A DNA stretch of 36,266 bases from a virus. The stretch's first letter is position 1; every line of letters starts with the position of its first letter. The DNA lies in IMG/VR virus record IMGVR_UViG_3300042514_000624, positions 1 through 36,266 of that record; one strand, given 5' to 3'. The notes under the pieces are model-generated. The model was given only the letters and a program-made list of their open reading frames with translations, was not told the origin of the DNA and made no database searches. This document shows, piece by piece, positions 1-36,266 of the stretch. The translations under genes and the position numbers were made by a program.

Positions 1-127
1 GATATTGCCCCCAGCCCGCAGGGTTCCCACACGAGAACCCACACAGCACAGCCACGCGATCCTCGGGCATTCCGAGATACGCAGCACGCAGGGCTATTTT
101 TTTCTGTTCGGAAGAAACGGACTTTTC
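1..127. repeat. Left copy of 127-bp terminal direct repeat
   Basis: Bases 1-127 are identical to bases 36140-36266. Such an exact end overlap is what assembly leaves when a circular, circularly permuted or terminally redundant genome is closed; 127 is also a common assembler k-mer size. It lies inside the small terminase gene, so it is not an independent repeat gene or element. Confidence 0.95.
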
Positions 128-247
128 AGGTCTCCCCACCCTCTTCTTTTTACCCTCCGACATTCCATGTCCAACCCCATTCAAGGTCTCAACCTGGAGA
201 ACGTCTTTTTTAATTTTTTTCCCCTTGGCCATGCCCCCCGATAGCAT
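1..247 (-). CDS. terS: Small terminase subunit (TerS), N-terminal part, runs off the left edge
   Basis: This is the 5' part of the small terminase gene, read leftwards and cut at base 1; it continues at 36139 after circular closure. The joined protein is 159 aa. The ATG at 247 has GGGG four bases upstream; an internal ATG at 232 is the alternative. Residues 1-40 are lysine-rich, and residues ~46-75 (AALRAAYLGMPEDRVAVLC-like stretch) look like the helix-turn-helix that small terminases use to bind packaging sites on phage DNA. It lies directly upstream of TerL, as expected. The divergent plus-strand genes start about 60 bp away. Confidence 0.75.
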   Translation of the reverse strand, partial: MLSGGMAKGKKIKKDVLQVETLNGVGHGMSEGKKKRVGRPEKSVSSEQKKIALRAAYLGMPEDRVAVLCGFSCGNPAGWGQY

Positions 248-2870: not shown

Positions 2871-3016
2871 TCAGCATTGTCGCCACGTTCCGCAAGCCGG
2901 ATGGAGAGATCGTGAAGGACTCCAGCTACCATGAACCGATCAGCGAGGCCCGCGAGGCTGCTGAGGAGGACGCTCATCGCTACGGGTGGGAGTTCCTGAG
3001 TGTGGAGCCGGTGTGA
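2867..3016 (+). CDS. Small hypothetical protein (49 aa)
   Basis: GTG start inside the GTGA overlap with the preceding gene. The protein, beginning ISIVATFRKPDGEIVKDSS and ending in an acidic, alanine-rich helix and GWEFLSVEPV, has a beta-beta-alpha look. Function unknown. It ends 31 bases before the methyltransferase start. Confidence 0.5.
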   Translation: MISIVATFRKPDGEIVKDSSYHEPISEAREAAEEDAHRYGWEFLSVEPV

Positions 3017-3047
3017 ACAACGAGTAACGAACAACGACTATGGGATT

Positions 3048-3833
3048 ATGGATACTACCAAAACAGTTACACACCTCAGCCTCTGCACCGGCTACGGGGG
3101 CATCGACCTTGGACTCCGCAGCGTTGTCCGAGACCTGCGAACTCTTGCTTATGCGGAGATCGATGCGTTCGCGATCGAGGTGTTACTTACGCGAATGGAA
3201 GATGGGTCGCTTGATGCGGCTCCGATCTGGACTGATGTACGGGATTTCCCGTGGCGTCTTCTTCACGGCAGCGTGGATATCCTCAGTGCGGGCTATCCGT
3301 GCCAGCCCTTCAGCCATGCCGGACTCCGCAAAGGTGAGGACGATGAGCGGCATCTCTGGCCCTACATCAAGCGAGGGATCGAGGCAGTTCGACCTGCAAT
3401 TGTCTTCCTCGAAAACGTCGAGGGACACATTTCGATGGGACTCTCCACAGTCATCAGCGACTTGGAAGATTTGGGTTACCGGTGTTCGTGGGGAATCTTT
3501 AGCGCGGAGGAATGCGGTGCGCCGCATCGCAGGAACCGAGTCTTCATCGTTGCTACCGACACCGTGTGCGAACGAGGACAGCTTTCGGTTGAACGGATCA
3601 AGTCAGCAATCCAAGACATTGGAAGCAATGGCGCGACGGGGAGAATTGAGTGGGCCAACTTTCGTGTCTGGCCCATTGAACCCGTCCTTCGTGGAAGTGA
3701 TGATGGGCATTCCAATCGGGTGGACCGCTTGCGACTCCTCGGAAACGGGGTCGTCCCAGCAACCGCCTCTCTAGCCTTCAAAACCCTACTCTCCGCTCCC
3801 TACACCCCATCCGAGCATCAAACGCGCTCCTAG
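3048..3833 (+). CDS. Orphan C5-cytosine DNA methyltransferase (261 aa)
   Basis: Transfers a methyl group from S-adenosylmethionine to C5 of cytosine in DNA. Family motifs are in order: I LCTGYGGIDLGL (residues 12-23, cofactor site), IV GYPCQPFSHAG (catalytic Cys 85), VI LENV (121-124), VIII APHRRNRVFIVA (158-169) and X LLGNGVVPATASL (230-242). The target-recognition stretch between VIII and X (~170-229) is short. The ATG at 3048 is chosen because an in-frame start at 3000 overlaps the previous gene. No restriction endonuclease is adjacent, so it probably protects phage DNA from host restriction or marks it; the target site cannot be read from sequence. Confidence 0.9.
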   Translation: MDTTKTVTHLSLCTGYGGIDLGLRSVVRDLRTLAYAEIDAFAIEVLLTRMEDGSLDAAPIWTDVRDFPWRLLHGSVDILSAGYPCQPFSHAGLRKGEDDERHLWPYIKRGIEAVRPAIVFLENVEGHISMGLSTVISDLEDLGYRCSWGIFSAEECGAPHRRNRVFIVATDTVCERGQLSVERIKSAIQDIGSNGATGRIEWANFRVWPIEPVLRGSDDGHSNRVDRLRLLGNGVVPATASLAFKTLLSAPYTPSEHQTRS

Positions 3834-9432: not shown

Positions 9433-10031
9433 GGCTTGTCCTCCTTGGCTTTGTTCCAGTTTGATTGATCAACCAGCTTTTGAGCAGCGGCTGCTGGTGA
9501 ATCCCAGCGGGTTGGATTGGAGTTTTCGCATAGCGCATCCCCAGCCTCCTCCAGCCGCTTGATGCGGACATTCGAGTCATGCCGCTCTTGAGACACTTTG
9601 AGATTTATCTCGCATATTTTATTATTTAATGATTTCAATTGCTGCGAGGACTTCTCCAGCCGCTTGATGCGCTCTAAAAGTAGAGGCACTTCGCGCTGAA
9701 TCACTTTGCGCTGAGACTCTCCGAGTTTTGCTCCGAGCAGTGTTGCGATGGCGTTGGCGTCCCATTCGCGTTCAACCGCCAATGCCGACTCCTTCCATTC
9801 CTCCAGCCGCTTGATGCGGTCTTGTAACCGCAGATTCTCCTCATTCAACAATTGCTGCTGCCGGATGATTGTGTTGGCTTCGTTGAGTTCGCGTTCTAAA
9901 TTGCGAGCAAAGGCCACATCTACCATCTCGAGCGATTGTGGCGGCTCCGAATCGTAACTGAGATACTCAGCGTCATCTGTCCTCGGTGTGTCGCTGATCA
10001 TTTTCGTGGGGTCAGGAATATGATCGCTCAT
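9429..10031 (-). CDS. Long coiled-coil protein with RIKRLEE repeats (200 aa)
   Basis: Mostly helical, heptad-patterned from residue ~40 to ~165, with the motif RIKRLE three times, spaced 49 and 35 residues (7 and 5 whole heptads). The start carries MISDTPRTDDAE, a phrase common in small phage proteins. ATG 10031 has a perfect AAGGAGGTAAA site in the last codons of the upstream gene. Likely a dimeric or scaffold-like accessory protein; function unknown. Confidence 0.75.
   Translation of the reverse strand: MSDHIPDPTKMISDTPRTDDAEYLSYDSEPPQSLEMVDVAFARNLERELNEANTIIRQQQLLNEENLRLQDRIKRLEEWKESALAVEREWDANAIATLLGAKLGESQRKVIQREVPLLLERIKRLEKSSQQLKSLNNKICEINLKVSQERHDSNVRIKRLEEAGDALCENSNPTRWDSPAAAAQKLVDQSNWNKAKEDKP
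9549..9818 (-). repeat. Three 18-bp direct repeats inside the coiled-coil gene
   Basis: CTCCAGCCGCTTGATGCG (plus-strand sense) occurs at 9549-9566, 9654-9671 and 9801-9818, encoding RIKRLE plus the next codon. Spacing of 105 and 147 bases is an exact multiple of 21, i.e. of coiled-coil heptads, pointing to growth by internal duplication. Confidence 0.85.
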
Positions 10032-23760: not shown

Positions 23761-24522
23761 TTACAGGATGTCTTGGAACGTGTAATCGTACAAGCTATCT
23801 GGGATGATGCGGCTGATTTGCTGTTGTTGGCCGCGTTCCATGTCTTTCATGATGGAGACCTGAGCGGCTCCCTCTTGGAACTTGGCTTGGGCTTTACCGT
23901 ACTGCCGAGAGTATTCGAGGAGATCGCCTTCGGTGTAGGCCATTAGAGCGTTCTCTACGCCTCGCAACTCAAAGTTGGTATCGTTGGAGATGGTGACCGC
24001 CTCACCGAACTGCCGCATCTGCGACTGTTTCTTGGCAAGTATGAACAGGGTGCCATCGGCATTGGGCGTGGGAACGAGCTTGATGCGCGGAACACCGGCC
24101 TGTCCGTAGGCTGTTCCAATGAGCCGAGTCCAGTTAACGAAGTTGCCGGGGGTGGATTTACGGCTATCGACGTTGTTCCAGGTGTTGGGATCGAGCTGGA
24201 AGAATGAGACCCATTCCGCGGCGGGAACTTCGATGCCATCGGTATCTCCGGTGACCGTGAAGCGGATGGCTACGGGGAAGTCGATGAAGGTATTGTAACC
24301 GGTCCCTGAAGCGTAAGCGGAGGCGACGTAATCCGAGAGAGTGATCATCTCATCGCCGGCGGTGACTGGATGAGAGATAATGCCGAGGGTATCGTTCCAC
24401 AGGCAGGAATCCCAGATCATCGAGTAGCGGCGGATACAGAACTTCTTGGCCAACGCGATGGTGGCCGAGTCTGTGAACGACAGCTTGTCGCAAGCCGCTT
24501 GAGCCGCTTCGGAGGGTTTCAT
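23761..24522 (-). CDS. Tail tubular protein A-like / head-tail adaptor (253 aa)
   Basis: N-terminus MKPSEAAQAACDKLSFTDSA and C-terminal helices (GVENALMAYTEGDLLEYSRQ, YGKAQAKFQEGAAQ) flank a beta-rich core (LGIISHPVTAGDEMITLSDY). Its size and its place directly before the 652-aa protein suit a gp11-like tail tube A or head-tail adaptor. ATGA overlap with the fibre gene upstream. Family assignment is by organisation, not by a decisive motif. Confidence 0.6.
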   Translation of the reverse strand: MKPSEAAQAACDKLSFTDSATIALAKKFCIRRYSMIWDSCLWNDTLGIISHPVTAGDEMITLSDYVASAYASGTGYNTFIDFPVAIRFTVTGDTDGIEVPAAEWVSFFQLDPNTWNNVDSRKSTPGNFVNWTRLIGTAYGQAGVPRIKLVPTPNADGTLFILAKKQSQMRQFGEAVTISNDTNFELRGVENALMAYTEGDLLEYSRQYGKAQAKFQEGAAQVSIMKDMERGQQQQISRIIPDSLYDYTFQDIL

Positions 24523-25799
24523 GCGAAGTATTCTTGCAAGATCATTGAGGAGCTTACTCGGGCAATGGACGGAGAGTTTATTCCGTTAAGAACATCTTGA
24601 TACGTCTTGTTAACCCACATTTGCGGAAACACCGACGGTCCAGTAGCGTACAAGTGAATCTTGTAAGTAACAGCAGATGCAGATGCCGGTGAATCAAGAA
24701 TCTGGATAAACTGGCTATTGAAAAAGCTGTTGAAAACAGGTCCAACACCAGGGAACGGCGCAATACCGAACAAGTCTGTACCAATGTTGTTAGATCCAAT
24801 TGGAGTTCCGTTACGAGTTACTCTGAATGCTCCGTAATTCAAGTTTCCATCAGCACCGTAGTTGATAGCTATTGTAACCAACACTGTTGAAGCTATAGAC
24901 CTAGGAGTAATCGATGTGGTGAGCACCGTTATCTCAGTGCCAGATCCAGCACTTGTGGCAACGAACGGACTCGCGCCAGCGGTGGAGTCTTGATAGAGAG
25001 TTTGTTTTACTTGAGGAGCAGTTGTCGCACTTATCCCCAACGAACTGGCGGGAACAACTTTAACCTTGCTAGAATCGTTTGCGTCAGTGATCAGCACCTT
25101 GTCGGCGGCAAGATCTATTGTAGCACTAAGTATATTTGGAACCGTGATCTGATCTGAAAGAATAACTACAAGATCTGCCGGTGCGCTTCCAAGCGTAGTG
25201 TCTCCGTTAACGGTTAGGTTTGCCGCCAGCGTTGCATTGCCGGTTACGCCAAGGGTTGTGCCAACAGTAGCCGCTCCCGTAACAACAGCACTGGCCAACG
25301 TAGAGACTCCCGTGACTCCGAGAGTAGTCCCAACGGTAGCGGCTCCGGTCACGCCAACGCTGGCTAGTGTGCTTGCTCCCGCGACTCCGAGGGTACCGGT
25401 AACAGCGGTGGCACCGGTCAGGGTGGAGGTTCCGGTGACCGCGAGGTTTCCTGGTACCGTGAGATTGCCGGTGAGCGTGGTTGCTCCGGTGACATTGAGC
25501 GCACCGCCTATGGTCGCTGCACCGCTCGTAGCGAGGCTTGATAGGTTGGTAGCCCCGGTGACGGCCAAAGTACCCGCAACAGCCGTGTTGCCGCTTGCAG
25601 AGGCCACTGTGAGCTTGTTAGTGGCTACGCTGAAATCTCCGGTGGTATTGACTGCGGCGTTGGAGACTTGGAGTGCGGAGTCATTGCCGCTGCCGTCGCT
25701 GATGGCTTTGAGCGATGCGCCTACGGTGGAGTTGTCGGAGTTCTTGAGTAGGCCAGTGTAGGTCGATGCAACGCTACTGCCTGTGAGTGGTGTTCCCAT
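24519..25799 (-). CDS. Repeat-rich tail/appendage fibre protein (426 aa)
   Basis: Residues ~60-215 are tandem beta repeats of the type GALAVTGATxLSG, including TGAATVGTTLGVTGVSTL, which also occurs exactly in the fibre at 26964-27956. The last ~170 residues form a distinct globular domain (ADLVVILSDQITVPN, VTRNGTPIGSNN, FFNSQFIQILDSP) ending in a receptor-binding-like sandwich. Likely host-binding fibre or spike. Only 1 base separates it from the preceding lipoprotein gene. Confidence 0.75.
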   Translation of the reverse strand: MGTPLTGSSVASTYTGLLKNSDNSTVGASLKAISDGSGNDSALQVSNAAVNTTGDFSVATNKLTVASASGNTAVAGTLAVTGATNLSSLATSGAATIGGALNVTGATTLTGNLTVPGNLAVTGTSTLTGATAVTGTLGVAGASTLASVGVTGAATVGTTLGVTGVSTLASAVVTGAATVGTTLGVTGNATLAANLTVNGDTTLGSAPADLVVILSDQITVPNILSATIDLAADKVLITDANDSSKVKVVPASSLGISATTAPQVKQTLYQDSTAGASPFVATSAGSGTEITVLTTSITPRSIASTVLVTIAINYGADGNLNYGAFRVTRNGTPIGSNNIGTDLFGIAPFPGVGPVFNSFFNSQFIQILDSPASASAVTYKIHLYATGPSVFPQMWVNKTYQDVLNGINSPSIARVSSSMILQEYFA

Positions 25800-26963: not shown

Positions 26964-27956
26964 TTAAGATGCGCGATAGGTTACTTGAGAGGTAAACTCG
27001 TCACTAGTCCCCCATGTTGCTGGCGCGGTTGCGTTAAGTGTCGAAGAAAGAACGGTTGAACCACTGACGGTAAGTGCGCGAAAATCAAAAACAGTAGCAG
27101 AATTACGTGTAACAACACCAAGATACTGTCCAACACCAGACCTCAAAAGGTTTACATATCCAACAGCTATTGTATCAATGGAGAACGGAAGTCCTGAAAT
27201 CGTCAAAACGCTGCTGGTTACAGACGTTGTTGATCCAAACGTAAGTTTGAACATAACTGAAACAATGTTTCCGATTTTTGTGTAAAAACCAGTAACCGAT
27301 CCGTTTCCAAGAGTGACATTCTGAAACGATGGTGTCCACGTCCCCTCCTCGTAATCGTTCAGTAGCTCGGAGGTCATCGTTCCGCTGCTGTTCGCAGTCG
27401 CGGAGAAGTCGATGCCTCTGCCGGACGTAGCCATCACTACGTTGCCGGTGGTTACAGACAGGTCGCCAGTGCTTAGGAGATAAAGGTTCTCGGCTCCATC
27501 TGCCGCGAACGAAAGCCGTTCGTTTAGATGGTCGTACCTTACCTTCCCTGAATTCCCAGCATTCAAATTGTCTCGGAAAACAATCTGTCCAGATTTGTCC
27601 GTATCTGACCGAATGAAAATGTTTGTATCGGAAGCAGCGGCGTAGACATCGAACTTTCCGATTGGAGTAGCTCCCACGCCAACAGCACCAGTCAGCGTCG
27701 AAACACCAGTCACACCCAGCGTCGTCCCCACCGTAGCCGCGCCGGTGATGGTGGCGGAGCCAGCGGTGACGAGTCCGGTGACAGTCAATGCTCCACTCGC
27801 GGTTGGCGAGGATGAGAGGATGTTGTTGACGCTGATCTTCTTAGTCGTACCAGATGCCGCCATCGTGGTATCGCTGACATCAACGATAGGGATAACGTCA
27901 TTAGCCGGATCAGCGGCGGTCAACGCCGTCAGTGCTGTAATCTTTGTGTCTGCCAT
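26964..27956 (-). CDS. Fibre/appendage protein (330 aa)
   Basis: Starts MADTKITALTALTAADPAND, a common phage adhesin opening, then VISVDVSDTT-like and KISVNNIL. Residues ~55-100 hold beta repeats including TGAATVGTTLGVTGVSTL, identical to part of the 24519-25799 protein. The C-terminal half has LNDYEEGTWTPSF and a beta domain, seen in tailspike and head-fibre proteins before the receptor-binding tip. Probably a host-binding appendage. Confidence 0.75.
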   Translation of the reverse strand: MADTKITALTALTAADPANDVIPIVDVSDTTMAASGTTKKISVNNILSSSPTASGALTVTGLVTAGSATITGAATVGTTLGVTGVSTLTGAVGVGATPIGKFDVYAAASDTNIFIRSDTDKSGQIVFRDNLNAGNSGKVRYDHLNERLSFAADGAENLYLLSTGDLSVTTGNVVMATSGRGIDFSATANSSGTMTSELLNDYEEGTWTPSFQNVTLGNGSVTGFYTKIGNIVSVMFKLTFGSTTSVTSSVLTISGLPFSIDTIAVGYVNLLRSGVGQYLGVVTRNSATVFDFRALTVSGSTVLSSTLNATAPATWGTSDEFTSQVTYRAS

Positions 27957-29108: not shown

Positions 29109-30266
29109 TTACAGCGTGGTCGAGGTCTTAGTACGATGCACCAGGTACCACACCGGGTTGTTGGTGTTGGTTGCGCTCGTGTTACCAGCGGCCAAACGCA
29201 GAGCGGCGAAGTACAGCTTCACACCAACGGTGACGAGCTGGTTCAACGGATCGCTCTTGTCGGGGGTATCGGTGATCACAACCTTCGGGGACAACGGATC
29301 ATCACCGGTCAAGGCAGGGATACCAAACGCCTCGTTACCAAGGAAGAACGAAGCAATGATGTCCTTGCCTGCCGTCAGACCGCCACCAGCCGCAGTGGCC
29401 TGATACACGAACTCATCACCAGCGGTGCTGGAACCGGTGCTGACAAACGAGTTGGTCTGAGTGACAACGCGGCAACCGTAGATGGAACCCACCTCGCCCT
29501 TGTAGAACGGGGTACCCTTGTTGCCGTAGTTGGAGGCGTTCAACCAATCGGTATCGCGCATCAAATCACGGGTAACACGAGGATCGGTCGCCAGGACGTA
29601 GCCACCATTGATCATCGGAGCGCGGTTACGCTTCAGACGAGTCATGGAATCCAAGACAGCCGAAGCGGTCATTGTGGTGTTGGCGGCGGTCGTATCGCTG
29701 TTCAACGCAGAGAAGGTCTGGGTCGTCAGCGTGGCGGGGTTACCGTAGACCTTAACACCCGTAGGGTTTGCGTTCGCACTGACGTTGATCGCGTCATCGT
29801 TGGAAATCGTTGATTCAATACCGCTACCAATCGAAGAGCCGCTGGCGGTGAGATTGGAACCAACGAGGACGTTACGAATGACCGAGTCAACCCAGAGGGC
29901 CATGTCCATACCGGAGGTCTTGGTGGCCTGCTGGAGTGAGTTGAACAGGTCCGTAGCGCGGAGGATGTCGGTCAATCCGATCACCTGACCGTACTGAGAG
30001 AGGCTCTTGGTTAGCTTGTTAAGAACAAGATTACGGTAGTTCGCGGAACCAATTGCCGTACCCTCAGTCAACGTCTTAACATCAGCAACGCTCGGCGAAC
30101 CAAAGCGGAACATCGTGATGGCTTGGTTACCGTTGTTCTTGGGGATCGTAGCCTTGGTGGCAAACTGATCAAGAATCGTCTCCTGCTGGACGATCGAGAG
30201 AAGCTCCTTGCTGAAGAAGTTCTGGAACTGGTTTGTAAGTGTGGTTGAATTAGTAATGCCTGCCAT
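29109..30266 (-). CDS. Major capsid protein, N4-gp56-like (385 aa)
   Basis: Main shell protein (HK97-type fold). The N-terminal block NQFQNFFSKELLSIVQQETI, ATKATIPKNNG, VKTLTEGTAI and LTKSLSQYGQVIGLTDIL matches the N4-gp56 family signature: helix, lysine-rich stretch, TLTEG, then SQYG. Size fits. It follows the scaffold gene; the gap carries the A/C-rich leader CACAACCACAACTAAAAT rather than a Shine-Dalgarno site, although the product must be abundant. Confidence 0.85.
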   Translation of the reverse strand: MAGITNSTTLTNQFQNFFSKELLSIVQQETILDQFATKATIPKNNGNQAITMFRFGSPSVADVKTLTEGTAIGSANYRNLVLNKLTKSLSQYGQVIGLTDILRATDLFNSLQQATKTSGMDMALWVDSVIRNVLVGSNLTASGSSIGSGIESTISNDDAINVSANANPTGVKVYGNPATLTTQTFSALNSDTTAANTTMTASAVLDSMTRLKRNRAPMINGGYVLATDPRVTRDLMRDTDWLNASNYGNKGTPFYKGEVGSIYGCRVVTQTNSFVSTGSSTAGDEFVYQATAAGGGLTAGKDIIASFFLGNEAFGIPALTGDDPLSPKVVITDTPDKSDPLNQLVTVGVKLYFAALRLAAGNTSATNTNNPVWYLVHRTKTSTTL

Positions 30267-32336: not shown

Positions 32337-34229
32337 TTATTGAACCATCTGCGGTTCTGGTCCGGCGGGCGGCATTGGCATCTGGGGCTGCTGCTGCTGC
32401 AACAAACCGCTGCTGGTCAAGAACTTCTGGATCTCAGCCCGCAATTTCCGCGCTTCATTGGTCGCCACCTGCTCGTACCCCTGCAACAGGCTGTCAATCC
32501 GCACCATAAACGCATTCTTCGAGGCCGGACTAAACTGCTGACCCTGCTGGATCGCCCCATTCAGGTACTGCATCAGCACACCGATACGGCCCGCGAAGTT
32601 CTGACCCGGTTTAGCCGGCACCGGGATGCCGATTAGCAGTGTCGGGATCGTCTTGGTCTCGTCCTCCAGCTCATCCTGCTGCTTCTGACCTGGATCCCGT
32701 ATCAGTTTTTTGATCAGGCTCGGGTCATCCAGCTCCATGATGCTCTTGTCCAGCTCCACCTGATCCACCCAGGGGCTGTTCTGGAACAGTTGCTTACGGT
32801 TAATGGCCTGCTGAACCATCATCTGCCGGCTGACCATGTCCATACCGCCCTTCGGTTCCAGCTCATATTGATCGTGCAATGCCACCGGGTCCGCATCCAG
32901 CGAGTCCTCGGCAAATCGATATCGTAAACTCTTGGAATCATACTGAACATAAAGTCCCCAAGCTTGCCGGTACATCTTGCCCAGTGCCATACGGAATAGT
33001 CGCGCCCGCAGATCACCGCTCTGCATCGCTTGAGCGTTGATACTCTGGATCTCGGTCGCCGTCCGCCGGTCACTGCCCCCGCCCATTGCACTGCCCATCG
33101 CGTAATCCGGACTACCGATCCGGTTCTCCGCCACCGCCCGAGTCTGGTTCAGCTCCTGATCGAAGCTCACCGGCGGCTGCGGCATCTGGACCGGGGCCAC
33201 GCCATAAGGGAGGATCTGACCCGGCGAGAACCGCAGGTTGATGCTGTTCGGCAGCTCCCGTTCCGCCCTAAATAGCGGGCGATTGTAGAGCGTCATCGCA
33301 TCGTGCTTATGGTTCCACATCGAGGTCATCGACAACTCGAACGGAGCCAGGATCTCGCACACGCCCCGCGGGCTGAACCATCCCTTGTCCTTGATCTCAT
33401 ACGGGAAGTCCACGAAGGGACATTGGCCATGATCATATGGCAACTCCATCGGATCCCGCAGATCCATATCCACTGCCGCGGGGCTATACAGGTAAACCTC
33501 CCACACCCCGTCATCCCGCTTCTTGTACACCTCCCACACAATCACCCCATCGGTATTGCTCGTGTAAGTGATACCCTCGCGAAGTTGCTTTGCGTCTTCC
33601 TCGGTTGCTGCTCCCGGGACGTTATCGTCCTGCTGCGGATTACCCCGAATCTTCTCGATCGTCTTGGAATCGCTCTTCCACCCGAACTGCCCAGCCATCC
33701 GCTTGTACGCTCCCACACTCATCGGCATCACATGCACCGCCCAATCTGCATCCTGCAAATCCACGGTGTATGCCGGCACAATGAAATACATCGGGTCAAT
33801 CGCCTCGAACCCCACTCGCTTATCACCAGGATTCCAGAAGCACTTGATCACCCCGCGCCCGCTCATCAGCGTGTAATCCACCCAGCTCAGGACTTCGTCC
33901 GTAAAATTGGTCTTGTCCCGAATCTTATAATTGAACCAGTCCTCCGCCACCTTCGTATACGCATTCAACTGCTGGCGCATCGGAACAAAGCTGGCCACAA
34001 CATCCATGCCCAACGCCTGCTGGAGGAACAGCGGCTTGAGCTTCTCGATGGCCGTATCAATGAGCGGCCAATGCAGATCCGCGGCCTTGGGCCAGGGCTT
34101 ATTGGTACGTCGCAATCCGTGATGGCGTAACTCATACCATCGCGTCTGCCTTATCTCCCACGGGCTTCGCTGGGCAACAGCCTCAACAATCTGGCCCTGC
34201 AACGAATTCCGCTGTTTGTCGCTCATCAT
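32337..34229 (-). CDS. Portal (head-tail connector) protein (630 aa)
   Basis: Ring-shaped DNA channel at one vertex of the head and docking site for terminase. Features: RYELRHHGLRRTNKPWPKAA-type start region, TLMSGRGVIKCFWNPGDKRV, FSPRGVCEIL-like block and the late helix DRRTATEIQSINAQAMQSGD, FRMALGKMYRQAWGLY, typical of podovirus portals. Length fits (500-700 aa). The C-terminus is Gln/Pro-rich (LLQQQQPQMPMPPAG). ATG at 34229 or 34226. Lies directly after TerL. Confidence 0.85.
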   Translation of the reverse strand: MMSDKQRNSLQGQIVEAVAQRSPWEIRQTRWYELRHHGLRRTNKPWPKAADLHWPLIDTAIEKLKPLFLQQALGMDVVASFVPMRQQLNAYTKVAEDWFNYKIRDKTNFTDEVLSWVDYTLMSGRGVIKCFWNPGDKRVGFEAIDPMYFIVPAYTVDLQDADWAVHVMPMSVGAYKRMAGQFGWKSDSKTIEKIRGNPQQDDNVPGAATEEDAKQLREGITYTSNTDGVIVWEVYKKRDDGVWEVYLYSPAAVDMDLRDPMELPYDHGQCPFVDFPYEIKDKGWFSPRGVCEILAPFELSMTSMWNHKHDAMTLYNRPLFRAERELPNSINLRFSPGQILPYGVAPVQMPQPPVSFDQELNQTRAVAENRIGSPDYAMGSAMGGGSDRRTATEIQSINAQAMQSGDLRARLFRMALGKMYRQAWGLYVQYDSKSLRYRFAEDSLDADPVALHDQYELEPKGGMDMVSRQMMVQQAINRKQLFQNSPWVDQVELDKSIMELDDPSLIKKLIRDPGQKQQDELEDETKTIPTLLIGIPVPAKPGQNFAGRIGVLMQYLNGAIQQGQQFSPASKNAFMVRIDSLLQGYEQVATNEARKLRAEIQKFLTSSGLLQQQQPQMPMPPAGPEPQMVQ

Positions 34230-34247
34230 AAATGTATACCCCTCTTC

Positions 34248-35783
34248 CTACCCGCCAACCTCGCATCCAGCAAGCGGAGACCCAGTTTCCTCCACCGGAC
34301 CTATCTCATCCTCCATCCTTTCAAGCAAGCTCCTTCCATCCTCACCCAACGCTTTCAGGTACTCATCCATCCGCTTCCCGCCACCACCGCAAAACGCCAG
34401 TACCATAGCATCCGCCCGATCCGGACTATTCACCCCGCGGGATCGTAACTCATCCTTACCCTCCAGAGTCAGCTTCCCCTTCCCATTAGTCCGCACCTTC
34501 CTGCTCACGAACTGCTGCAATAGAATCTCGTCCGTTCCCACAGGCCCCAGATTCACCTTCGCTTCCTCCACCATCCGCCCAAACTCAATCCACATCTCCG
34601 CCGCCCTATTCACGAACTGATCATCCCGAATGGCCCGCTCACCAAAGTTAACCCGCCGCACATCCCAACCCTCGGAGCGGAGCGCGTCACACATCACAAC
34701 ACCCATGCCGCCCACATCCGCATAGATATCCGCCGCCTTCAGATTCCACTTCCTGAACTCCGCTATGAACCTACCCACACTGGCCATCGTGTCCTTATCC
34801 CGCCATCGCACCAGCCCCTTAACCGTATTACCCTGGCGAATGACGAGAACGCTTTCATCTCCACCAGCCGAGAAGTCACAACCCGCGGTCAACGGCTGAC
34901 CCTCCGTATCCTCTTTAGGTGGGCCACTAACCACCCTCTGCCAATCGATCGTCTTCACCGCCGTCAAACTCCCGTCATCCTCCATGAACTCCGCGTAGAT
35001 CATCGATCTCACAAGCGGATGCCCCTCGCCCCACCTAGCGAACTGATCATCAATCCACTCCTTCCGGATATGCGGACAATCAAAAGCCGTCACCGTAAAG
35101 GTATTCCACTTCCCATCATTTCTGCGAAATACATCGTAGAAATAGCCGCTGCTACCCCCGGGGCTGCTCATCAGCAGAGTCCGCGTTGGCTGGCACCGTT
35201 CCATCGACTGGAATATCCCGTCCGGTACCGCCTTCGCCTCATCCACAATATACAGCAAATCATTGCTCGGACCCTGCACATGCCAGCCCTCCGCTTTCTC
35301 AGGATTGCTCGCGCTAAACCCTATGCACCTACTCACCAACTCCTGACCATCCACCTTCTTCGGGTACACATAGCGGATCTCTCCATCCTTGATCGAGAAT
35401 CCATTCTCCTCGCCTCCCAATCCATTGATCATCTTACGCAGATGCGGCCACAGGGCATCGGCCACCTGCCGGTACACACCCGCGGTACATACCACAAGAC
35501 TCCCAGGCCAGCGGAGCATGTGCCAGACGACCGCGCTCGCGGCTACCATGCTCGTCTTGCCAGAGCCATTCGCGGCTTTAAGGGCCACCTTGGAATGCTT
35601 CTCGTTCAACGCTCCCAGCACCTTCTCCTGCCAAGGGTACACATCGCGAAGCCCCAACATCATCTTAGGGAAGTTGGCCAAATGTTGTGCCTCCTCCAGG
35701 AGCTTACGCTGCTTCCATGCGGGGATATGCGAACCCATTCCTAGTGAAGGGGATTTCTTCCGTTTAATTTGCTTGACACTCAT
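34248..35783 (-). CDS. terL: Large terminase subunit (TerL, 511 aa)
   Basis: Packaging motor and nuclease. ATPase half: Walker A ANGSGKT (about 71-77) and Walker B YIVDEAK (~178-184), coupling motif SSPGG (~206-210). Nuclease half: CDFSAGGDE (D303), ADVGGMG (D356) and SPDRADAMVLA (D455/D458), the acidic triad of RNase H-type terminase nucleases. ATG 35783 chosen; the frame is open to 35822. The gap to TerS carries no Shine-Dalgarno but an A/C-rich end (CCCAACCCAATTTT). It drives DNA into the portal. Confidence 0.9.
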   Translation of the reverse strand: MSVKQIKRKKSPSLGMGSHIPAWKQRKLLEEAQHLANFPKMMLGLRDVYPWQEKVLGALNEKHSKVALKAANGSGKTSMVAASAVVWHMLRWPGSLVVCTAGVYRQVADALWPHLRKMINGLGGEENGFSIKDGEIRYVYPKKVDGQELVSRCIGFSASNPEKAEGWHVQGPSNDLLYIVDEAKAVPDGIFQSMERCQPTRTLLMSSPGGSSGYFYDVFRRNDGKWNTFTVTAFDCPHIRKEWIDDQFARWGEGHPLVRSMIYAEFMEDDGSLTAVKTIDWQRVVSGPPKEDTEGQPLTAGCDFSAGGDESVLVIRQGNTVKGLVRWRDKDTMASVGRFIAEFRKWNLKAADIYADVGGMGVVMCDALRSEGWDVRRVNFGERAIRDDQFVNRAAEMWIEFGRMVEEAKVNLGPVGTDEILLQQFVSRKVRTNGKGKLTLEGKDELRSRGVNSPDRADAMVLAFCGGGGKRMDEYLKALGEDGRSLLERMEDEIGPVEETGSPLAGCEVGG

Positions 35784-35906
35784 AAAATTGGGTTGGGTAC
35801 GGATGGGGGTATAAGGTATCACCCACCCCCCTGCTGGGTGGTCCCCCGCCCCCGTCGTCCTATTACCATATCCGCCATCCGTATACCGCTATTCCTATTG
35901 CCTATC
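35784..35906. other. TerS-TerL spacer with hairpin and AATAGGA repeats
   Basis: Read on the minus strand the 123-base gap has three AATAGGA copies and CCACCC-AGCAGGG-GGGTGG, a 6-bp stem, then a G-rich stretch. No gene is seen. Such gaps by the terminase genes can hold the packaging start (pac/cos) or a regulatory stem, but neither is proven here. Confidence 0.4.
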
Positions 35907-36266
35907 CTATTTAGATTGTCCACCGAATGCGCCAAGCAGATTGCCGCTAACCGATAACTCCTTACCCCCTTTGCCAGTATGTTCTAGCGATGCCCTTGCG
36001 ACATATCCACGGGTACGTTCTAGCAACCATGCGGATCCTTGCCAGCCATTGCCCGCATCTAGAACCCTTCCTTGCATTTCAACCTCACCGGTGACGCGAG
36101 CGGTTTCAAGCTCCCGTTTAAATTCCGGATGGCGAATGAGATATTGCCCCCAGCCCGCAGGGTTCCCACACGAGAACCCACACAGCACAGCCACGCGATC
36201 CTCGGGCATTCCGAGATACGCAGCACGCAGGGCTATTTTTTTCTGTTCGGAAGAAACGGACTTTTC
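35907..36266 (-). CDS. terS: Small terminase subunit (TerS), C-terminal part, runs off the right edge
   Basis: Residues 41-159 of the terminase gene whose 5' end lies at the left edge (247 to 1). Residues from 60 read MPEDRVAVLCGFSCGNPAGW, GQYLIRHPEFKREL, then GEVEMQGRVLDAGNGWQGSA and WLLERTRGYVARASLEHTG, a helical oligomerisation region typical of TerS: an AxxWLLERRxP-like helix. The tail ends GKELSVSGNLLGAFGGQSK. The frame is open to the window edge, and an internal Met at 36209 is not the true start because the reading frame continues through the circular join. Confidence 0.8.
   Translation of the reverse strand, partial: EKSVSSEQKKIALRAAYLGMPEDRVAVLCGFSCGNPAGWGQYLIRHPEFKRELETARVTGEVEMQGRVLDAGNGWQGSAWLLERTRGYVARASLEHTGKGGKELSVSGNLLGAFGGQSK
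36140..36266. repeat. Right copy of 127-bp terminal direct repeat
   Basis: Identical to bases 1-127. Joining the two copies gives a circle of 36,139 bp and restores the terS reading frame exactly, which strongly supports genome completeness rather than a biological repeat. Confidence 0.95.

Follow-up and report, generated by a model that had tools for sequence, protein, structure and literature searches.

A 127-bp end overlap closes a phage genome within a small-terminase gene whose DNA-reading domain appears to be swapped together with a candidate packaging site

The closest described counterparts of the locus reported here are in the P22-like phages. Segments of the small-terminase gene, terS, move horizontally among and beyond these phages (PMC4669245), and the TerS gene of P22 contains that phage's 22-bp pac site (PMC9611059). 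In lambda, 21 and N15, different recognition helices on related machinery give rise to separate packaging specificities (PMC4669245), and the C-terminal part of lambda TerS binds TerL (PMC6739421). Pac sites are hard to pin down; for several phages, in vitro assays found that TerS bound pac weakly or not measurably (PMC9611059). The Rpp proteins of PICIs bind the N-terminal domain of TerS and redirect packaging (PMC6739421), and a proposal made for PhiGT1 is that its small terminase is under diversity selection (PMC10386132).

The DNA analysed here (the window) is a viral stretch of 36,266 nt, positions 1 to 36,266 of IMG/VR record IMGVR_UViG_3300042514_000624. Its first 127 bases (1–127) recur exactly at its right end (36140–36266), as the initial annotation had stated, and no longer end repeat is present. 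A repeat search (seed 14, minimum 20 nt) returned one other direct-repeat family, of 21 nt; an exact match of 127 bp against this background rules out a chance origin. Removing one copy leaves a circle of 36,139 bp, in which terS reads without a break through the join, as a minus-strand ORF of 159 aa from the ATG at 245–247 to the stop at 35907–35909. In the linear record the gene falls into a right-hand piece (35907–36266, minus strand, codons 41–159 and the stop) and a left-hand piece (1–247, minus strand), which holds the start codon and shares the 127-bp repeat with the right-hand piece. The suspicion that the edge truncation of terS is an artefact was borne out: it reflects the point at which the contig was opened, and separate contigs carry a continuous terS.

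Loci of relatives were aligned against the closed circle. The join was continuous in 15 loci, representing 10 distinct contigs (one-piece alignment through the 127 bp plus 30 bp on each side). Two of these, L001 (dataset 3300044645, 99.84% identity over 6,912 bp) and L002 (dataset 3300043469, 100% over 7,493 bp), are the same phage as the window, carry its terS ORF and continue beyond the 127 bp on either side; one of them may come from the window's own dataset. Contigs that cross the join, these two included, rule out a chimera. The overlap is therefore real, the join is continuous in other contigs, and we read the window as a single complete phage genome of 36,139 bp. By itself, a circular contig fits either a circular or permuted molecule or a linear genome with long terminal repeats. 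Of the earlier proposal of a circular or circularly permuted molecule of about 36,139 bp, closure thus stands on the separate contigs; permutation is favoured by the scattered openings described below, which do not prove it.

What sets the length of the overlap? As a control we took 80 unrelated gokushovirus-like microvirus contigs from the same database and scored exact terminal repeats of at least 15 bp. Such repeats were present in 31 of the 80 contigs and absent from 49. Lengths of 121 bp (nine contigs), 127 bp (seven) and 123 bp (five) accounted for 21 of the 31, the others being two of 55 bp and eight single values. The contigs with 127 bp (7/80) came from seven datasets, and those with 121 bp from four datasets with adjacent numbers (3300020017, -42, -43 and -44). 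One of these datasets, 3300020043, also gave 76 and 124 bp, once each, and G007, a relative of the window from this dataset, has an end overlap of exactly 121 bp. Other exact overlaps among the window's relatives measured 25, 40, 105, 114 and 121 bp; 127 bp is not general in the group. The control lengths and the 121 bp of G007 strongly support the conclusion that overlap length mainly follows the assembly rather than the virus. End overlaps of maxK are left by metaSPAdes and MEGAHIT, and metaSPAdes was run with k up to 127 in the COBRA-related contig-joining paper that describes them (PMC10914622). Most likely, then, the copy at 36140–36266 is an assembler k-mer overlap that closes the circle, of the usual largest k of metaSPAdes, and not a phage repeat. 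It corresponds to the maxK-long overlaps that COBRA treats at the ends of contigs from de Bruijn graphs (PMC10914622); no difference between the two is known.

Packaging and head genes were identified near the join, all on the minus strand. The terminase large subunit gene terL (34248–35822, 524 aa; PHROG 2, E 3.3e-34) lies 84 nt from terS, and beyond it are the portal gene (32337–34229; SU10_portal PF23899, E 1.3e-18) and the major capsid gene (29109–30266; N4-gp56 family, TIGR04387, 169.3 bits against a cut-off of 60). With a capsid of the N4-gp56 family and an SU10 portal, the phage does not share the head and tail genes of the P22-like group. A search of TerL against solved structures gave no PDB match at E 1, and its typing comes down to the broad PHROG 2 match, so that packaging type could not be read from it. 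Among the matches listed for terL, the best named phage is 35.6% identical, and the best three (31–36%) infect Akkermansia. In GTDB, three terL relatives (L376, L377 and L378; 73–92% aa identity) lie on MAG contigs of 3.4–5.1 kb titled Verrucomicrobiota, Candidatus Aquidulcis (which we take to be Chloroflexota) and Chloroflexota; these contigs are possibly mis-binned phage.

Elsewhere in the window, a DNA methyltransferase gene (3000–3833, plus strand; PHROG 363, E 5.6e-60) lies in a left arm whose longest ORFs are on the plus strand. A 21-nt repeat occurs three times at 9547–9819, at distances of 105 and 147 nt, inside a 200-aa ORF. The segment 14412–18270 holds two large ORFs (893 and 508 aa), lacking PHROG matches, that perhaps encode ejection proteins; 15 of the 16 long relatives have no DNA alignment longer than 200 bp here (G004 being the exception), and the flanks align in nearly all. 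Two proteins encoded at 24519–25799 and 26964–27956, perhaps tail fibres, have a common type of repeated peptide, TVGTTLGVTGVSTL.

The joined TerS matched PHROG 4102, terminase small subunit (E 4.1e-5), and had no Pfam or NCBIfam match. It has the layout of a small terminase, with an N-terminal helix-turn-helix (HTH) followed by long helices, and its gene adjoins terL. An AlphaFold model, built from an alignment of 57 of the 71 terS listed, places helices at residues 46–57, 62–68, 76–85, 87–110 and 115–134. Block means of pLDDT are 82–95 over residues 41–100; the model as a whole is poor (mean pLDDT 65.5, pTM 0.48). The best nine Foldseek matches were all small terminases, of NV1, Sf6 and PaP3, and were weak (E 0.3–1.1).

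Comparison with relatives divided terS into parts of very different character. DNA similarity to the window breaks at 36029–36058, within terS, in 9 of the 16 long relatives, and in 8 of these 9 it returns at 536–644 beyond the join. Among the remaining long relatives, alignments stop at 35844–35864 in three, two contigs end near there, and G004 and G016 run across. In a set of 73 terS (window included), the N-domains often differ between phages with closely similar terL, and the last ~45 residues barely change. Clustering at 72% identity, from which the class numbers used here are taken, reduced 276 loci (among them several from one contig) to 128 distinct terS in six classes of 41, 26, 26, 17, 17 and 1, class 6 being a single distinct sequence. 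N-domain identity between classes averages 26–58%.

Once near-copies are removed, class does not track the terL tree. With the 72% classes, members differ in class in 201 of 267 pairs whose terL DNA is at least 95% identical, compared with 2095 of all 2628 pairs; clustering at 70% identity instead put the 73 terS into 5 classes and left 195 of the 267 close-terL pairs differing. Near-copies do share class: it differs in 9 of 27 pairs at terL identity of at least 97% and in 2 of 19 at 99% or more. On a terL tree of 58 rows, obtained from the 73 by removing same-class near-copies (terL ≥98.5%), class changed 34 times, where shuffling gave a mean of 34.6 and 88 of 200 shuffles were as low; on a tree of 66 rows the 34 changes compare with 39.7 (as low in 3 of 200), so that class is somewhat clustered. 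Pairwise identities over 54 loci told the same parts of terS apart, with Spearman coefficients against terL of 0.75 for portal, 0.71 for the terS C-terminus and 0.08 for the terS N-domain (a value reached in 6 of 500 permutations). When near-copies were removed (43 loci), the N-domain coefficient was 0.14, reached in 1 of 500 permutations, and therefore a weak link to terL remains. Two classes occurred together in 8 of 118 metagenomes (three classes searched). Loci L041 and L043, both from metagenome 3300044638, carry two terS classes in phages of the same group.

The limits of the exchanged segment can be drawn from pairs in which only part of terS is shared. Of ten listed same-class pairs with divergent terL, six, all of class 1 and overlapping in membership, are 72–93% identical in DNA over a stretch that begins ~420 bases ahead of the terS stop and ends 60 bases ahead of it, with a peak of 82–93% from 420 to 120 bases and a collapse of similarity upstream. 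In classes 2 (25 of 26), 4, 5 and 6, together 60 terS, the upstream edge carries a GRP motif. In two class-2/class-5 pairs the 45 nt before GRP are 100% identical and the HTH DNA after it is 37–41% identical. Different-class pairs seldom share a tail at 85% identity or more (11 of 1,198), and 503 of 572 same-class pairs have unlike tails (<60%); these unlike-tail pairs are on average 77% identical over the candidate site described below and 72% over the HTH DNA, against 55% and 45% between classes. From these identity patterns and the similarity breaks we place the unit of exchange at about codons 41–110 (36056–36266, minus strand; ~70 codons, ~210 bp), which covers the predicted DNA-binding domain. 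Its upstream edge, GRP|E, falls at 36266 (equivalent to 127), and its downstream edge at about 36053–36058. It is flanked by a variable N-terminal tail and by a near-invariant C-terminal segment of ~48 codons (35910–36055, minus strand), presumed to dock TerL. On these comparisons the DNA-reading domain of terS exists as at least six allele classes that are swapped as a ~210-bp block among close relatives, and the C-terminus follows terL.

Codon 41 starts at the contig end (36266), which coincides exactly with the cassette's upstream edge; we spotted this coincidence post hoc. The circle may have been cut at a branching k-mer, made by a second strain that diverges at the cassette edge.

Synonymous variation along terS was then compared within classes 1–5, using spans of ~10 codons and 5,000 column shuffles. 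Each of these five populated classes has a ~10-codon trough where the domain begins or shortly ahead of it, and within the domain codons vary freely. Relative rates in the trough are 0.34, 0.15, 0.30, 0.43 and 0.33 in the five classes, and a span as low arose in 0, 0, 0, 2 and 1 of 5,000 shuffles (0 for the class to which the window belongs). In terL, which served as a control (521 codons, 44 sequences), the lowest 10-codon span was 0.57. The troughs of classes 2–5 end 107–108 codons before the end of terS, and the class 1 trough sits ~12 codons upstream of that position. In the window the trough corresponds to AAGTCCGTTTCTTCCGAACAGAAAAAAATA (36234–36263, minus strand, codons 42–51; second copy at 95–124), which we take as a candidate pac site. 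In the predicted structure its codons encode the beginning of the first HTH helix. Allowing up to 3 mismatches, a search of the window placed a 21-nt core at the two copies alone, and a 26-nt core has exact matches in 14 stretches of the viral collection. Trough sequences differ between classes, and each of the five finishes within or close to an A-tract (AAA AAA or similar). The shared A-tract is less class-specific than a pure pair of reader and site predicts, and a regulatory or RNA element might also account for such a trough.

We lean towards reading the trough as a pac site within terS that travels with its own reader. The terS block of ~210 bp would then carry both a DNA reader and the ~30-bp pac site that it reads. 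Recombination at two short shared sequences would swap reader and site together, so that packaging specificity would change in one step with the match between them kept, and the fixed C-terminus of TerS would keep docking to TerL after the swap. Packaging would probably be headful and start from the candidate site within terS. The account as a whole, combining a closed genome, an overlap derived from assembly and a swapped terS block that carries reader and pac site, is in our judgement probable.

End comparison covered 23 long contigs (the window, 16 long relatives and 6 further ones), 12 of which, window included, have end overlaps. Six of the 12 overlaps are inexact (176 to 588 bp, 89.6–99.7% identity), as expected where an assembly runs past its own start into another strain. 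The openings are scattered, at window positions of 4.7, 5, 9, 12, 19, 19–21, 21, 27–28 (three contigs), 35.3–35.9 and 36.1/0.1 kb, some of them extrapolated over unaligned DNA, and no fixed terminus was seen among the openings of the 23. This scatter favours permutation and does not prove headful packaging. Might the 127 bp instead be a genuine short direct repeat at the ends of the virion DNA? It is exact and the sole long direct repeat found in the window, and the exact overlaps of relatives differ in length; yet 127 is a standard assembler k that recurs in unrelated microviruses, and the repeat sits within terS coding sequence that L001 and L002 extend past on both sides. We rejected a real terminal repeat on the microvirus control and consider it extremely improbable. 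A linear phage whose ends are fixed (either cos ends or a long direct terminal repeat) and that assembles as a circle, its terS mosaicism unrelated to packaging signals, has somewhat more to commend it. The authors of CheckV note that direct terminal repeats often come from assembling a circular genome or a linear genome replicated as a concatemer (PMC8116208), and a map of contig ends has hot spots. The densest, at 35798–35948 (15 of 210 mapped ends) and 34148–34298 (13 of 210), both flank terL, in a map from which 105 of 315 true ends were dropped (104 unmapped or >60 nt from an alignment, 1 duplicate) and which samples most of the genome thinly, its loci having been gathered through three genes (terL, portal and primase). 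However, the long relatives open at many positions, the hot spot at 35798–35948 mixes both end types (8 left, 7 right), and it lies just inside the conserved flank of a border with variable DNA, a place at which mixtures of strains would be expected to break assemblies. The ends concentrate ~290–460 bp away from the candidate pac site, not on it. A fixed terminus at these hot spots is not distinguishable from assembly breaks at conserved/variable borders, and we regard fixed ends as improbable.

A pac site in the trough, packaged from as proposed above, has likewise to be set against other readings of the same codons. They might also be constrained by a promoter, by the site of a regulator, by mRNA structure or by frameshifting at a slippery A-run, and both the recurrence of the A-tract in all five tested classes and the ~12-codon shift of the class 1 trough would suit such an element. 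The trough nevertheless reaches upstream of the A-run; the class-2 and class-5 consensus troughs have no in-frame ATG, GTG or TTG; and in the classes with the GRP motif the trough moves with the HTH domain rather than with the upstream tail. Frameshifting at the A-run was rejected, as the −1 and +1 frames after it close in the window after 41 and 2 codons. An element of another kind seems rather unlikely to us. Whatever the trough is, the terS classes themselves might be old diversity kept by drift and recombination, without selection on packaging specificity, and other blocks of the genome are indeed mosaic too, as alignment gaps against the long relatives indicate. Indirectly, drift fits less well with exchange that is confined to the reading domain, the C-terminus and portal tracking terL, or with finding two of the three searched classes together in the same metagenomes, and we hold it to be possible but doubtful. 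We infer, tentatively, that selection keeps the terS classes.

What would such a block mean for the phages that carry it? Tentatively, it may be a multi-allelic, self-matching packaging cassette in a common group of uncultured phages, whose many alleles would coexist because a rare specificity evades mis-packaging by rival phages or capture by TerS-targeting satellites. The Rpp proteins of PICIs represent one pressure that could drive terS diversity (PMC6739421), and the published guess of diversity selection on small terminases becomes testable here (PMC10386132). For the analysis of metagenomes, matching ends alone are a routine sign of a closed assembly, and strain mixtures may break phage assemblies at cassettes of this kind. 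Synonymous constraint that travels with a swapped reading domain offers a way to seek pac sites in metagenomes.

How does the locus compare with the systems described at the outset? The P22-like phages are alike in exchanging terS segments and in having pac inside terS, the site here being a candidate. They differ in that the exchanged unit here is a sub-gene block, found as six classes within one close group of uncultured phages, with block edges at GRP upstream (classes 2, 4, 5 and 6) and approximately at GNGWQG downstream; the candidate site comes from synonymous constraint, not from genetics. In the lambda-like types the site (cosB) is in cos, whereas the candidate here lies within the reading domain's own codons. 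The PhiGT1 proposal was drawn from deep trees (PMC10386132), whereas the exchange described here is among phages whose terL DNA is mostly 95–98% identical, some of them from the same metagenome. Among the matches listed in the open-licence literature, we found no description of a self-matching sub-gene TerS cassette. Exchange of terS is thus already known from the P22-like phages, and a sub-gene cassette that carries its own matching site would be a new form of it.
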